58,048 nt of DNA from Sulfurimonas sp. (GTDB taxonomy: Bacteria > Campylobacterota > Campylobacteria > Campylobacterales > Sulfurimonadaceae): NCBI GenBank assembly GCA_026996295.1, contig JALWLL010000031.1, positions 1-58,048 on the forward strand, given 5' to 3'. Every line of letters starts with the position of its first letter. Position 1 is the first letter of the stretch. The notes beneath the pieces are model-generated. The model made no database searches and had not been told where the DNA came from. It saw nothing but the letters and a program-made list of their open reading frames with translations. The translations under genes and the position numbers were made by a program. Positions 28,520 to 39,256 of the stretch are shown here, piece after piece.

Positions 28520-28966
28520 TTATTGGTATATAACTTTTCTGATATTTTCACCGTTTTGTTGACGTATCTTATCATAGAGTTTTTGATGTTGTAATTTTTT
28601 TTCATAACTTATGGGTGATCTAAGCGATTTATACTCAACAAGCTCACCATCTTTATATACTCCCGAAACAATAGCTTCCACCCAGTAAAAGCCGGTATCT
28701 TTACGAAGATTTTTTACAACACCAACCCATTGTTTTTTATTTTGCAGCGTTTCCCACAGCTCACGAAAAGTAGCACTTGGCATATCGGGATGGCGCACGA
28801 TACTGTGAGGTTTACCTATCAGTTCATCGATATCATAACCGCTAATTTCACAAAAGGTCTCATTGGCGTATGTGATGATTCCGTTAAGGTCTGTTCTTGA
28901 GATGATCAACTCATCATCTGGAACAACTGTTTCAACTAAAAATTCGCTTCTATTAAACTCTTGCAT
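28520..28966 (-). CDS. Single-domain PAS protein inside the nap operon
   Basis: A 148-residue protein made of one PAS domain of the Aer-like type (LNGIITYANETFCEISGY, then KPHSIVRHPDMP and FYWVEAIVSG). There is no output domain. Such PAS domains often bind FAD or haem and sense redox potential. It sits between napL and napD on the same strand with short gaps, so it should be co-expressed with nitrate reductase. It may signal redox state to a chemoreceptor or other partner; this is inference. Confidence 0.88.
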   Translation of the reverse strand: MQEFNRSEFLVETVVPDDELIISRTDLNGIITYANETFCEISGYDIDELIGKPHSIVRHPDMPSATFRELWETLQNKKQWVGVVKNLRKDTGFYWVEAIVSGVYKDGELVEYKSLRSPISYEKKLQHQKLYDKIRQQNGENIRKVIYQ

Positions 28967-32819: not shown

Positions 32820-35639
32820 TTACGCTTTATAAATTTTTACAGCACATTTTTTATAGTCTGTTTGTTTTGACATAGGACACGTCGCATCTAAACATACTTT
32901 GTTGATGAATACTTTTTCATCAAACCATGGAACAAATACAAGTCCACGTGCCGGTCTATTTCTACCGCGAGTCTCAACTCTTGCTTTTACTCTACCACGA
33001 CGAGATTCAACCCAGCATAGACCACCTTGTTTTAGGCCTTTGTCTTTTGCATCTTGTGGATGCATATAACATAATGCTTCTGGAACCGCACGGTATAGCT
33101 CAGGTACACGCATTGTCATAGTTCCTGAATGCCAGTGTTCTAGTACACGACCTGTACATAACCAAGTGTCATACTCAGCATCCGGCATTTCCGGTGGATC
33201 CATGTATGGGCGAGCAAATATTTTGGCTTTGTTTGGTAAGCCTTTTTTCTTGCTTGTTTTATCTTTACCGGTTAATGTACCGCTTTGGAGTGCTTTTGCA
33301 AGAGTACCGTAGAATGCAAATTCGCCAGTCTCACCATTATTTGTAGCTTTTGCTGCATATGGATCGTATTTTGCGTTAAATCTCCATCCGGTTTCTTTAC
33401 CGTCAACAACCGGCCATTTAAGACCACGAACTTTATGATAAATATTAAACGGTGCAAGGTCATGACCGTGCCCACGAGTAAAAGAAGCATACTCTTCCCA
33501 TAGATATTTTTGGATGAAGAAACCATACCCTTTAAATACTTTACCGTCTGAACCGACAACATTTCTACTGTCACCATACCCTTCAGAGTTATCATAACCC
33601 GCTTGGATAGGATCATTTTGATCAAGCTTGTATGCTTTTGCAACTTTATTTGCAAAAAGGATTTCATACATAGTAGTATCTTCATCATAGCCCATCGCTT
33701 TTGCTTTGTCAATAACACTAGGAAGTGCTTTTTTTCTTGGACCAGATGGTGCATATGCGCCCCATAGATCTTTTACGGTAAATCTTTTTGAAAGTTCAAC
33801 CCATTGCCAAGTATCACTCATAGAATCACCTACAGGAAGTACCTGTTGTCTCCAGTGTTGTGTACGACGCTCAGCATTACCGTATGCTCCCCATTTTTCA
33901 TAGATCATAGCAGAAGGTAAGATAAGGTCTGAAACTTTTGCAGAGATACCAGGGTATCCATCAGAAGTTACAATGAAGTTATCCATTTCACGAGCTGCTT
34001 TGATCCAGTGAGTTGCGCTTGCTGAATCCTGGTAAGGGTTACAAACATTTACCCATGCAAACTTGATGAGACCATCTTCAATATCGCGATGGATTTTCAT
34101 AATGTGCTGTTTACCAACACCATTGAGAGTTCCCTCTGGGATCATCCATTTTTTCTCGGCAATTTTTCTGTGTTTAGGATTTTTCACCATCATATCTGCC
34201 GGAAGTCTGTGTGTAAATGTACCAACTTCACGAGCTGTACCACATGCTGAAGGTTGACCTGTAAGTGAGAAAGCACCTGAACCAGGTCTTGCTTGTTTGT
34301 TAAGCATAAAGTGAACATTGTATGAGAGTGTATTTGTCCAAGTACCACGTGTATGTTGGTTCATACCCATAGTCCAGAAACTTACAACTTTTCTGTTTTT
34401 CTCTACATACAGATCGGCCAATGCTTGAAGTTTTTCTTTGAAGCTTTCAATAGACTCATCAGGGTTACCTTTAGAGATTTTTGCTACATAATCAAGAGTA
34501 TATGGCTCTAATGATTTTTTATACTCTTCAAAAGAGATCTCCCAGTGACCAAGTGTACCCGCAGTGTTTTTCATAGTATCACCGGCTTTGTAGCCATATG
34601 GTGCAAGAGCAGGAGCTTCTTTTTCTGAAACAACTTTACTCATCTCTTTGTTGATAGTTTCCATCTCTTTCGCTGAGTATTTACCATCTTTTAAAGATTT
34701 TTCACCGGCTCTTCTCATACCATAACCGATATTTACCGGTCCAGCTGCAAAGACGATGTGTTTCTTGAGGAAATCCCAGTCAATAGCTTCTGGATGGTTG
34801 TAAACAATTTCACGTGCTATGTAGTTCCACAGAGCCATGTCCGTATTTGGAGAGAAGATGATCTCAATATCTGCTAAGTCAGAAGTTCTGTGTGTATATG
34901 TTTGAATAGATACAACCTTTACACGTTCAGGATCTGAAAGTTTTCTATCTGTAACACGTGACCAAAGGATCGGGTGCATCTCTGCCATATTTGATCCCCA
35001 AGCTACAACAGTGTCTGTAAGCTCAATATCATCATAACAACCAGATGGTTCATCTACACCAAATGTTTGATAAAAACCAACAACTGCCGATGCCATACAG
35101 TGACGAGCATTTGGATCAATTGCGTTTGAGCGGAATCCCGCTTTCATCATTTTTTGGGCTGCATAACCTTCCATAACAGTATATTGTCCGGATGCAAATA
35201 CACCTACACCCTCAGGTCCGCTCTCTTTGAGTGCTTTTTTGATGTGAACTTCCATCTCATCAAAAGCTCTTTTCCATGAAACCGGAGCAAACTTACCCTT
35301 TTTATCAAAGTTTCCATTAGCATCAACTCTTAGTAGAGGTTGAGTGAGTCTGTCCGCACCATACATGATTTTTGCATTAAAGTAACCTTTAATACAGTTA
35401 AGTCCTCTATTTACCGGAGCTGCAGGGTCTCCTTTAACAGCAACAATCTTACCGTTTTTCGTTGCCATCATGATACCACAACCGGTACCACAAAAACGAC
35501 ATGCTGCTTTGTCCCATCTCCAGCCGCCTTCAGCTGTATTAGCCGCTGCTTCGAGCTCCGACGGTACACTCATACCTATCGCTGCTGCTGCAGATGCTGC
35601 CGCTGAACTTTTAAGAAATTCTCTTCTTGAAAGTGACAT
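32820..35639 (-). CDS. napA: NapA, periplasmic nitrate reductase catalytic subunit
   Basis: A 939-residue molybdenum enzyme that reduces nitrate to nitrite. It has a Tat signal (SRREFLK near residue 4), an N-terminal [4Fe-4S] site (CRFCGTGCG, fourth cysteine in NCIKG) and the molybdenum-ligating cysteine in ARHCMASA near 181. Length fits Campylobacterota NapA. AGGAG lies just before the ATG. The promoter region upstream holds a CRP/FNR-type palindrome, so expression is probably under the regulator encoded at 36846-37511. Confidence 0.97.
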
Positions 35640-35751: not shown

Positions 35752-35777
35752 AAATCTTTGACTTATGTCAAAGATTT
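35752..35777. promoter_or_regulatory. CRP/FNR-family operator of the nap operon
   Basis: AAATCTTTGAC (35752-35762) and its exact reverse complement GTCAAAGATTT (35767-35777) flank TTAT. The core TTGAC-N4-GTCAA resembles FNR/NssR-type sites. Its placement at -41.5 relative to the inferred start is that of a class II activator. Confidence 0.7.
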
Positions 35778-35832: not shown

Positions 35833-36846
35833 TTAAGTAACTGTGTCTTGACATGATTTTGTAAGTTTCTCAAGTTCCTCTTTGAGATTTTGCAACCTTT
35901 TTGTTGAATTTATAAGATCTTCTGTAGATTCTATGACAATATCTTCACTGTTATTAAGATGTTTTGAGATCATAGAAGTGTCTTTAAGCTCATTCAAAAT
36001 AGTGTCAAATTCATCTGTGAGCTCTTCTAGTTTTTGTGATGCCTGTTGCGACTGTAGTAAGGCTTCGCTGGAATAATCAACAGCAGAGTTTATCTTTTGA
36101 ATAAAACAGTTGATCGTATCACTCACCTCAACGATTTCAACTTCAACTTCACTCTCCTCTTTTATCTTGATTGGTTCTAGTTTATTTCCATTATTGCTGA
36201 CAAGTTTTTTAGAATATTGCATAAACTCATCTACATGTGATTCTATGGTTCTGAGTTGAAGCAGGGCATAAATGAAAACAAGCAAAAGAGTAAATCCCGA
36301 AGCATACTGAAACATTTTTATAAAGTTTGTTTTTTCTTCACTGTAGTCTGTGTACATGGTTACAAGTTTGTCCACTTCATCAAGTAAGATTGTATTTTCT
36401 TTATATATTTTAGTGACTATATTTTCAAGTTCAGTTTTTCTGTTGACCCCTGAATTTGTAAATATTTTAAAATTTTGGATATCTTCATAAAATTTTTCCC
36501 ATTTTTTATTTACTTCTAGAAGTTGTTGAGAGATCTTATGAGTTGGAACTGAAGGGATCTCTTTATCTTGAGAACCGTGTCTTAGGATATTTAGGCCTCT
36601 TATGAATTCATCTACGGCAGAGTTGAGTTCGTAAAAGTCTTTGCTGTTTGTATAGTGGATATAAAAAACATTTTTTGCTATTTTTTGTGTGAGCATTCTT
36701 TGTTTTCCAACAATATTGACAACCAAAGCATCTTTTGTATTTTGTTTGTTGAGATATATGGTTGTTGTAATTACACTTAACATTAAGATAATCAAGATGG
36801 AGCCAAGAAGTTTTATTTTGGTACGTATTTTATTTGGTTTTCTCAT
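35833..36846 (-). CDS. Membrane nitrate/nitrite sensor-like protein without kinase domain
   Basis: A 337-residue protein with membrane segments near 12-30 and 178-197. The enclosed periplasmic domain begins with a P-box (VVNIVGKQRMLTQKIAKN), the nitrate-binding signature of NarX/PilJ-type sensors. The cytoplasmic part is about 135 residues of predicted coiled coil with no histidine kinase, HAMP-signalling or GGDEF domain. It overlaps the stop of the CRP/FNR regulator gene by one base and lies directly upstream of the nap operon. It probably senses nitrate or nitrite and acts through a partner protein. Confidence 0.8.
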   Translation of the reverse strand: MRKPNKIRTKIKLLGSILIILMLSVITTTIYLNKQNTKDALVVNIVGKQRMLTQKIAKNVFYIHYTNSKDFYELNSAVDEFIRGLNILRHGSQDKEIPSVPTHKISQQLLEVNKKWEKFYEDIQNFKIFTNSGVNRKTELENIVTKIYKENTILLDEVDKLVTMYTDYSEEKTNFIKMFQYASGFTLLLVFIYALLQLRTIESHVDEFMQYSKKLVSNNGNKLEPIKIKEESEVEVEIVEVSDTINCFIQKINSAVDYSSEALLQSQQASQKLEELTDEFDTILNELKDTSMISKHLNNSEDIVIESTEDLINSTKRLQNLKEELEKLTKSCQDTVT

Positions 36847-37511
36847 TACTGTGCACCTTTATATATATTTTGAAGTTCCTCATGATTGAGGATTATAATG
36901 GATGAGTTTTCAATATCGATCACTTCACTTCTTTTGAGTTTTTTCAGTACTCTTGAGAGTGTCTCGGGCTGAATATGGAGCATAAAAGAGACCTCCTGTC
37001 GTTTGAGTTTGTTAAACATTTGCAAGTCGGAACTAAGCATAAATGCAACTTTTGCCGTAGCATCAAATACAAGTTCTCTGTTAACAACGCAGTGGAGCTG
37101 TTGAGTTTTTAAAAGTATCTCATTGATAAATTCGTTATTAAGAATATTTTTCGATAAAAAGTGTTTTTTCAGTTCTAAAAAGTCGATCTCCAAAATAACA
37201 CTTTCTTCCATGAACTCAGCGTTTGAAAAACAGTGAATCATATCATCGTCAAGTGTTGTGAGTTCTGAGATCATAGAGTTTTTGTAGATATGATATAAGA
37301 AAATTTCATTGTCAAATTTATCTATTTTATAGACTTTCAGTAAGCCTGATGCAAGAAAAAAAATCTTATTGAAGGTATCATTTTCATAATATAAAATAGA
37401 GTTTTTAGGGTGTTTTGTAAGGGTTGAAATATTGTTGATGATACTTAATTGATCCTCATTAAGTGACTTAAAAAAATTAAGTTCTTTAATATATTGTAGT
37501 TTTTCGCTCAT
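36846..37511 (-). CDS. CRP/FNR-family transcriptional regulator
   Basis: A 221-residue regulator with an N-terminal cyclic-nucleotide-binding-like fold (about 15-130) and a C-terminal winged helix. The recognition helix is in the segment QPETLSRVLKKLKRSEV near 180-196. The N-terminal FNR cluster cysteines are absent, so it is not an oxygen-sensing FNR; it resembles NssR/Dnr-type regulators of nitrogen-oxide response. It is coupled to the nitrate sensor gene and close to the nap operator. Confidence 0.88.
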   Translation of the reverse strand: MSEKLQYIKELNFFKSLNEDQLSIINNISTLTKHPKNSILYYENDTFNKIFFLASGLLKVYKIDKFDNEIFLYHIYKNSMISELTTLDDDMIHCFSNAEFMEESVILEIDFLELKKHFLSKNILNNEFINEILLKTQQLHCVVNRELVFDATAKVAFMLSSDLQMFNKLKRQEVSFMLHIQPETLSRVLKKLKRSEVIDIENSSIIILNHEELQNIYKGAQ

Positions 37512-37519
37512 TATTATGG

Positions 37520-37837
37520 TTATTTCTCTAAAAACTGTTTAAGTTCTAAGTATTCTTCTTCAATGGTTTTCATATTTTCGAGCATCTTGATCTCATCAAT
37601 TCCTGTATTTTCCTGCAAGAACTCTTCTCTCCATTGTATGTTTTTACTTAGCTCATCGAGCCCTGTTGTTACATATTCGAGCATTTTATCGATCTCTACA
37701 CCGTTGATCATCCCCTTGGTATCAGCCTTGTAAAATAATAATGCATACTCTCCCATCTCCTGGGAATATCGAAAATCATCGGCAATATTTTTTATAATCT
37801 CTTGTACTCTTTTGTTTTTAAATTCTCGTTTTGCCAT
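37520..37837 (-). CDS. Small helical protein, unknown function
   Basis: A 105-residue soluble protein, highly charged and predicted all helical, with no cysteines and no known motif. It starts at an ATG and ends eight bases before the regulator start, so it is the first gene of a probable three-gene unit with the regulator and nitrate sensor. I see no function. Confidence 0.65.
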   Translation of the reverse strand: MAKREFKNKRVQEIIKNIADDFRYSQEMGEYALLFYKADTKGMINGVEIDKMLEYVTTGLDELSKNIQWREEFLQENTGIDEIKMLENMKTIEEEYLELKQFLEK

Positions 37838-37999: not shown

Positions 38000-39256
38000 A
38001 TGCAGTTTATAGAGGCACTCAAGCTTAGAAGTAAGCTTTTATTTCTTTTTATTTTGATTACTGTGGGGCTTATTGTTATAGGTTTTATGGGAGCCATCAA
38101 CATCAATGCAATGAAAAAAAATGTTGATTCACTCTATTTTGGATCATTAGTGCCTGTTACAGAGCTTAACACTATTATGCAGGAATATCATGGTAGTCTC
38201 GCAAGCAGTATTTATATGGCAAAAAATGCAGAGATCAGTCCGAGTCAAACCTATGCAACGATAGAGAACTCTCTCAAACATATAGATGCAACATGGAAAA
38301 GTTATCAAAGTCATTTTAAAAGAGATGATGAACTGCAGTATGTTGAGTATGTTGATGCAGAGATGAAAAAAACACATGAGTATTTTCAAAGAGTGCTTAA
38401 AGCGATTGAATCAAACATCAGCTTGAAGTATCTTTCCATCGCGGCATTAGAGAGCCATATCTCTCATATACACTCCATATTGGAAAAACTTATTAATTAT
38501 GAAGTGGAAGTTGCAAAGTATGAAAGAAAGGCTTTTTTAGACAAATACAACTCAAGTATGGCAGAAGTGGGGATCATTCTTGTGTGTATCATTATTGCAA
38601 TACTTCTGATCTCTTATTCTGTCTTTAGAAGTATTCAAAACGATCAAACCAAGCTGGAGATAGCAACGAAAAAACTCAAGCGTGCAAACAAAAGACTTGA
38701 AAATGTTTCTTATACGGATGCATTGACCTCGTTGCACAACAGAAGATATTTCAATTTTATCTATGAAAGAGAGTTAAAAAGAGCAAAAAGAAACCATAAC
38801 TACATCACTTTTATGATGCTCGATATAGATTTTTTCAAGCAGTATAACGATACTTATGGGCATATCGAGGGAGATTTTGCACTCAAGTCGGTTGCAAAAG
38901 TGCTCAAAGATACGCTCAAGCGGCCGAGTGACTTTGTTTTCAGGCTTGGTGGGGAAGAGTTCGGCATTTTACTTGCAGATACGGATGAGCTCAACAGTGC
39001 GAAGCTGGCACAGCGCATTTGTGACAAGGTTAGAGAGCGTGAGATCAAGCATGAGACAAGTAAAGTTCATGAATTTGTAACGATCTCTATCGGTGTTGTG
39101 TGTTGTGTTGCAGATGATGCTTTAGATGAGGATATTTTGATCTCCCATGCAGACAAAAAGCTTTATGAAGCAAAACAAAACGGACGAAACCGTTTTGTTA
39201 TCAGCTCAAATGTCAGTGAAGCGAGCATCAAAAAAAGTGGTGAGCTTATCGCTTAA
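38000..39256 (+). CDS. Diguanylate cyclase with four-helix-bundle sensor
   Basis: A 418-residue membrane protein. Membrane segments near 12-33 and 190-210 enclose a helical periplasmic sensor of the four-helix-bundle type found in chemoreceptors. A short coiled coil leads to a GGDEF domain (about 235-400) with the active RLGGEEF signature near 313. It should synthesise cyclic di-GMP. It starts at ATG 38000 and is divergent from the regulator cluster. The last 11 bases overlap the convergent SUI1-like gene. Confidence 0.94.
   Translation: MQFIEALKLRSKLLFLFILITVGLIVIGFMGAININAMKKNVDSLYFGSLVPVTELNTIMQEYHGSLASSIYMAKNAEISPSQTYATIENSLKHIDATWKSYQSHFKRDDELQYVEYVDAEMKKTHEYFQRVLKAIESNISLKYLSIAALESHISHIHSILEKLINYEVEVAKYERKAFLDKYNSSMAEVGIILVCIIIAILLISYSVFRSIQNDQTKLEIATKKLKRANKRLENVSYTDALTSLHNRRYFNFIYERELKRAKRNHNYITFMMLDIDFFKQYNDTYGHIEGDFALKSVAKVLKDTLKRPSDFVFRLGGEEFGILLADTDELNSAKLAQRICDKVREREIKHETSKVHEFVTISIGVVCCVADDALDEDILISHADKKLYEAKQNGRNRFVISSNVSEASIKKSGELIA

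Follow-up and report, generated by a model that had tools for sequence, protein, structure and literature searches.

In the sensor kinases NarQ and NarX, nitrate is held by a G-x-x-R motif (PMC8199190), and the same motif holds nitrate in McpN, a nitrate-specific chemoreceptor; the PilJ receptor, which contains the PilJ domain as well, failed to recognise nitrate (PMC6381276). In NarX, changing this arginine to lysine or serine removes the ligand response, and NarQ R50K was crystallised in a putative apo form (PMC7247690). The regulators NssA, NssB and NssC reportedly act with nitrate, NO and N2O (PMC6682613), their consensus is TTGA-N6-TCAA (PMC11539149), and how Nss regulators sense nitrate, NO and N2O was called unsolved in a 2021 review (PMC8139620).

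In this study, we analysed a locus in which a membrane sensor without a kinase lies beside a CRP/FNR-family regulator and the nap genes. We compared the locus with its relatives in other genomes, and our preferred reading, which we hold to be fairly probable, is that the membrane protein is a nitrate receptor acting directly on its cognate regulator.

Anatomy of the locus and of the sensor

The window, that is, the whole stretch of DNA analysed, comprises 58,048 nucleotides of a contig (JALWLL010000031.1) from a Sulfurimonas sp., a marine bacterium that oxidises sulfur. The features discussed below are as follows, in window coordinates.

37520..37837, minus strand: 105-aa ORF without a known family, 8 bases upstream of the regulator
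36846..37511, minus strand: CRP/FNR-family regulator, 221 aa, Nss-like, with PF00027 and PF13545 above cut-off
35833..36846, minus strand: membrane sensor without a kinase, 337 aa, with PilJ/P-box periplasmic domain, two transmembrane (TM) helices, HAMP-like region and helical hairpin
36478..36756, minus strand: PilJ domain of the sensor, residues 31-123 (PF13675, E=1e-20)
36685..36738, minus strand: P-box, residues 37-54, with G47-x-x-R50, a motif as in PMC8199190 and PMC6381276
36067..36255, minus strand: HAMP-like region, residues 198-260, from structural alignment to the NarQ sensor-TM-HAMP fragment
35869..35958, minus strand: conserved C-terminal tail, residues 297-326, a candidate regulator-contact surface from column conservation
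35758..35771, no strand assigned: Nss-type box TTGACATAAGTCAA (napA sense strand), starting 132 bases before the napA start codon
32820..35639, minus strand: napA, periplasmic nitrate reductase, the presumed main target, with its start at 35639

The first-pass annotation of this DNA had placed a CRP/FNR-type regulator next to nap and had called the sensor gene translationally coupled to it. Both statements held: the two regulator domains scored above their cut-offs with napA on the same strand, and the regulator stop and the sensor start overlap by one base (TAATG on the minus strand). The order on the minus strand is regulator, sensor, napA, napG, H, B, F, L, a PAS gene and napD. The single-PAS gene (window 28520-28966, minus strand), between napL and napD, has homologues at the same position in many of the order's nap clusters. 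A diguanylate cyclase with a four-helix-bundle sensor (window 38000-39256, plus strand) is divergent from the regulator operon and keeps this position in 8 of the 13 nap-side loci closest to the window. The 105-aa ORF is probably on the same transcript as the regulator; as a third partner it was rejected, with a tblastn match in 3 of the 13 closest nap-side loci of the first set, one of them partial. The named sequence matching the sensor best was a metagenome contig labelled Helicobacteraceae (JALUKO010000109.1, 98% identity), and the next best were mostly Sulfurimonas.

The sensor scored 74.4 bits against PF13675 (PilJ), for which the cut-off is 26.6, and has transmembrane segments at residues 13-31 and 178-196. 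Pfam families for kinase, GGDEF/cyclase, MCP-signal and HAMP domains all stayed below cut-off in the window sensor, including HisKA_3 and HATPase, the kinase parts of NarX/NarQ, which gave no match. The annotated membrane protein with a P-box sensor domain and no kinase was thus confirmed by its PilJ match, two TM helices, G47 and R50, and the absence of kinase family matches above cut-off.

An AlphaFold model of the sensor was built from 53 sequences (mean pLDDT 79.8). The model showed a four-helix periplasmic bundle, TM helices running on into the cytoplasm with a break at 218-235, and a cytoplasmic helical hairpin (236-286 / 291-334) at a modest pLDDT of about 60-70. The bare cytoplasmic coiled coil of the first-pass annotation therefore gives way to a HAMP-like region followed by a helical hairpin, whose last helix ranks with the best conserved stretches of the sensor. 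The best structural match was McpN (6gcv; Foldseek E 1.3e-3; Z 17.8, 2.0 A, 124 residues), and the NarQ sensor-TM-HAMP fragment aligned to model residues 1-256 with Z 13.6 at 3.5 A over 222 residues. In sequence, the sensor profile matched PilJ (E=2.8e-13) and McpN (7e-10). The description of the sensor as NarX-like stands for its NarQ/NarX-type fold and its G-x-x-R motif but not for the sequence of the sensor domain, which is nearer to PilJ and McpN than to NarX.

The same genome contains a second regulator-sensor pair, directly upstream of nosZ and without G-x-x-R (G000 contig C14, L046:7144-8773). The sensor of this nos-side paralogue missed the PF13675 cut-off, and its model had the same layout as the window sensor. 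Its best match was NarQ R50K (Z 12.1); other structures tied with it, and this score is lower than what the tool regards as safe for helical bundles. Matches of the nos-side hairpin to FadA, the LSD1 tower and other antiparallel coiled coils (Z about 10-11) were set aside as common coiled-coil resemblance. In another genome, the nos-side sensor match fell in two overlapping frames (G099 contig C1:2380936-2381881), perhaps a broken gene.

Recurrence of the pair and its link to Nss regulators

The sensor sequence, used as the only query, found matches in 59 of 101 genomes of the family. From the matches, 40 listed places were taken with their surroundings, mostly by rank with a few lower ones; in 39 of these 40 a same-strand regulator of the same type immediately preceded the sensor, the exception starting at a contig end. 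With an alignment of 34 sensors we searched 298 genomes of the order and drew another 80 places from the matches listed; overall, the regulator was directly upstream on the same strand in 118/120 loci. In a named collection, 78 of the best 80 of 158 relatives were paired, both exceptions being at a contig start. Six more loci, picked after 298 genomes of the phylum had been searched, were all paired (6/6), and the 83 genomes matched in that search all belonged to the same order. The named loci partly duplicate the unnamed ones; after identical sequences were dropped, 183 distinct sensors remained, 180 of them with a regulator in the data. The first 40 loci are the least biased, because the later sets used a profile built from paired sensors. 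Among the four unpaired sensors of the 118/120 and 78/80 sets, three were at contig ends and the fourth was L163.

The distance from regulator stop to sensor start ranged from -23 to +63 bases in all 196 pairs, the commonest value being -4 (61 pairs). The sensor class of the nearest regulator neighbour was identical in 180/180, and sensor and regulator distances agreed with r=0.89, an agreement that common descent alone would also predict. By hand count, the pair is kept in 13 family-level groups. Since the pair recurs, chance is excluded as its origin, and the co-occurrence of the two genes in the four sets bears out the association read from this one locus. No separate kinase came to light either: no kinase gene lies beside the pair, and HisKA_3 (NarX/NarQ-type), the only kinase family searched in the whole genome, had no match at E<=1 there, while the E. 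coli positive control matched.

Of the 120 loci, 59 had nap genes nearby, 17 had nosZ and 44 had neither. Among these 44, one family-level group had NrfA, NrfH and an NrfI-like haem lyase as neighbours, another had cytochrome-oxidase-type NorB, NorC and cytochrome cd1 NirS, and other groups had sirohaem or haem-d1 genes near the pair. Some loci had no nitrogen gene within reach, for example L158-L160 and L162, which lay beside queA, tat-like and gidB genes, of which gidB alone was confirmed by Pfam. A napA match above cut-off was present in 219/298 genomes of the order and the sensor at E<=1e-40 in 91/298 (sensor counted by hand); nap can therefore do without the module, since many napA genomes have no sensor. 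Conversely, 88 of the 91 sensor genomes had a napA match at E<=1e-90 (hand count). Sensor and regulator are one conserved unit tied to nitrogen-oxide respiration.

The regulator scored 26.4 against the NCBIfam model for CRP (cut-off 266) and 30.6 against that for FNR (cut-off 228), and its layout of a cNMP-binding-like domain and a Crp-type HTH is that of the Nss regulators. FNR proper has four cysteines for its [4Fe-4S] cluster; the window regulator has two only, at positions 94 and 141, and so lacks this set. Among 180 regulators, both cysteines were present in 128, neither in 48 and C94 alone in 4; they were absent from all 29 partners of N-x-x-K-type sensors, kinship being ignored in this count. 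The two residues are possibly a redox or metal site. The nearest solved relatives of the regulator are Lmo0753 and DNR.

Three regulators of this type were found in G430, a presumed W. succinogenes genome. The first (L248) is encoded next to a sensor with tandem P-boxes, ahead of napA, and shares 45.6% identity with the window regulator. The second (L256) stands without a sensor and shares 47% identity with the third, likewise solo regulator of the window genome, an Nss-like protein in the nirS/norB (nir/nor) cluster without a sensor (L245:7995-8678, minus strand). The third (L257), another solo regulator, immediately precedes nosZ and shares 24% identity with the window regulator. By position and similarity, these three are probably NssA, NssB and NssC, respectively. 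In the same presumed W. succinogenes genome, nosZ is split by a transposase gene (L257:8522-12425). The Sulfurimonas nos-side regulator was 48.8% identical to the nap-side one and 24% to the presumed NssC, and was rejected as an NssC orthologue on these values; the nos pair is therefore a copy of the nap pair at the position held by the solo nos regulator in G430.

We then looked for the Nss box upstream of the target genes. An exact TTGA-N6-TCAA within 300 bases before napA was present in 56 of 84 distinct regions, with a mean of 1.5 and a maximum of 4 in 50 first-order resamplings, these upstream regions being related by descent. With one mismatch allowed, all 84 regions had a box (resampled mean 26, maximum 38), and before nosZ the exact box was found in 25/27 (resampled mean 0.5, maximum 3). 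Over the whole window, the exact box was not enriched (6 vs 3.8 expected), and therefore position is what matters. The box before napA is a predicted site of the regulator, and any Nss paralogue could use it.

The gene pair might also be co-transcribed for separate signalling, the regulator sensing a small ligand of its own and the sensor addressing a partner encoded elsewhere, for example a kinase or a chemotaxis protein. DNR and NssR-type proteins are thought to sense NO themselves, and DNR is, with Lmo0753, the closest solved relative; the solo relative in the nir/nor cluster has no sensor beside it, and Cys94/Cys141, conserved in many regulators, could mark such a site. We nevertheless consider this unlikely, as pairing is near-absolute across many families and contexts and the same regulator class goes with the same sensor class in 180/180. 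Furthermore, the sensor has no MCP-signal or kinase domain, the genome has no HisKA_3 kinase, and no cytoplasmic column of the sensor alignment has histidine in >42% of weighted sequences.

The putative nitrate site and the conserved tail

In the alignment, G47 and R50 of the window sensor coincide with the nitrate-holding G-x-x-R of NarQ, NarX and McpN. These residues are kept on the nap side: of 95 distinct nap-linked sensors, 94 have G..R, and only L152 departs from it, with G..S in the first of its P-boxes. Among the 27 nos-linked sensors, 24 had N..K, one I..K and two G..R, the latter two (L087, L197) being the same contig as judged by length. There, a G-x-x-R sensor pair stands directly before nosZ (L087:6129-7142, plus strand), an exception to the nos-side rule. 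Sensors with neither nap nor nos nearby comprised 57 with G..R, three with N..K and one with H..K. Many sensors (about 440-510 aa) have a tandem double P-box. We suggest, from the aligned motif, that the window sensor and the nap-linked sensors bind nitrate through G47/R50 or the residues aligned with them. Because the arginine changes abolish the response of NarX and NarQ R50K is putatively apo, no nitrate response is expected of the nos-linked class; nor has this class simply decayed, as the run around N-x-Q-K is conserved in it. A tentative and rather doubtful extension is that the nos copy, which has Asn-x-x-Lys at the nitrate position and lies immediately ahead of nosZ, responds to a different nitrogen oxide, perhaps N2O itself, while the nap copy reads nitrate, the module being a contact switch duplicated and re-targeted in Sulfurimonadaceae.

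The unit may work as proposed with another ligand, such as nitrite, another anion or the redox state. NarX and NarQ also accept nitrite, the failure of the PilJ receptor to recognise nitrate (PMC6381276) shows the same domain without this ligand, and the nos-linked members without the arginine must sense something else or be locked. The I-N-x-x-G-x-x-R-M run of the nap-linked members is, however, the motif of the nitrate receptors (PMC8199190), and the best structural match is the nitrate-specific McpN (PMC6381276), so that a ligand other than nitrate appears quite unlikely to us.

Weighted column entropy had its lowest values at the P-box (34-65, 1.57 bits) and the tail (297-326, 1.70 bits); the stretches before the tail had 2.34 bits (263-285) and 2.73 bits (286-296). 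E301, I305 and L325 were at least 98% conserved over all sensor classes, and the strict ED..I tail pattern was present in 166/183 sensors, most of the 17 misses having EN or EG instead or being cut short. L163, the sole unpaired sensor with ample upstream sequence, had no tail at all and a Pfam match to PilJ only; this single case fits a tail kept for the regulator. Direct coupling analysis of 180 pairs gave an inter-protein maximum of 1.79, compared with 0.66-1.11 in five within-class shuffles. A docking site did not emerge from these covariation scores: 8 of the top 100 inter-protein scores fell in the tail, about as its size predicts. Covariation was thus discarded as evidence for tail contact, since the scores spread in proportion to region size.

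That the sensor is the functionless remnant of a decaying NarX-type kinase, kept by its operon position, is highly improbable: it does end where NarQ would run into S-helix and kinase (domain borders as in PMC7247690), with the model aligning to NarQ up to residue 256, but a remnant would not retain its tail among the most conserved parts or be expected to have a distinct conserved nos-side variant, and the regulator partner is kept in 13 family-level groups.

Proposed signalling route and comparison with known systems

Nap reduces nitrate outside the cytoplasm, which makes the need for a receptor plausible. The pair recurs across the order with a kinase-less receptor beside a regulator, and therefore the two probably form a direct signalling route. 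In the proposed sequence of events, nitrate would bind the PilJ domain in the periplasm at the dimer interface via G47 and R50, and, as in NarQ, binding would shift the helices of the TM and HAMP-like parts. The cytoplasmic hairpin, through its conserved tail, would alter the activity of the cognate CRP-family regulator by contact, without phosphate transfer, and the freed or activated regulator would bind the TTGA-N6-TCAA box and switch on nap. The ligand, the contact and the direction of control are what we infer for the pair. The resting sensor might hold the regulator back, or the nitrate-bound sensor might activate it; we lean slightly towards the former.

The domains themselves are already known; this arrangement was not found in the literature searched. 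The sensor-regulator pair had no description in the literature covered, including the accessible parts of PMC6682613, PMC11539149, PMC8139620 and PMC12285233; Kern and Simon 2016 lies outside this coverage and may mention the neighbour gene. Beyond the first-pass annotation, the comparison adds the family at large, a nos-side variant that lacks the nitrate arginine, and the connection to Nss regulators. In this group, respiration with nitrate, NO and N2O is under the control of Nss regulators, and a receptor beside the nap-side one makes the nitrate half of this control testable, also in W. succinogenes, a model organism, as the receptor stands beside the nap-side regulator in its presumed genome. 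If the contact is true, it adds a phosphorylation-free route by which a periplasmic signal reaches a CRP-family protein. N2O reduction bears on greenhouse-gas turnover, and the nos-side variant is a candidate for its control.

Compared with the Nss regulators (W. succinogenes NssA/B/C and C. jejuni NssR), the window regulator shares the TTGA-N6-TCAA box before napA; no membrane partner of Nss regulators is described in the accessible literature covered, whereas a membrane protein is encoded beside the window regulator. The sensor resembles NarX/NarQ in its sensor, TM and HAMP-like fold and its G-x-x-R site, but those kinases have a DHp/catalytic domain that the window sensor lacks, and its partner is a CRP-family protein rather than a response regulator. 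McpN, the P. aeruginosa nitrate chemoreceptor with a PilJ domain, is both the best structural and a top sequence match and has the same I-N-x-A-G-x-Q-R-M-L motif; unlike McpN, the window sensor has no MCP domain and is linked to gene regulation, not to chemotaxis genes. To our knowledge, no CRP/FNR protein is controlled by a nitrate receptor through contact of this type. Membrane control of a transcription factor by protein contact is known from anti-sigma factors, Mlc-PtsG and MalT-MalK. As in our proposal, a receptor in these systems acts on a regulator without phosphorylation, while the receptor and regulator families differ from those of the pair described here.
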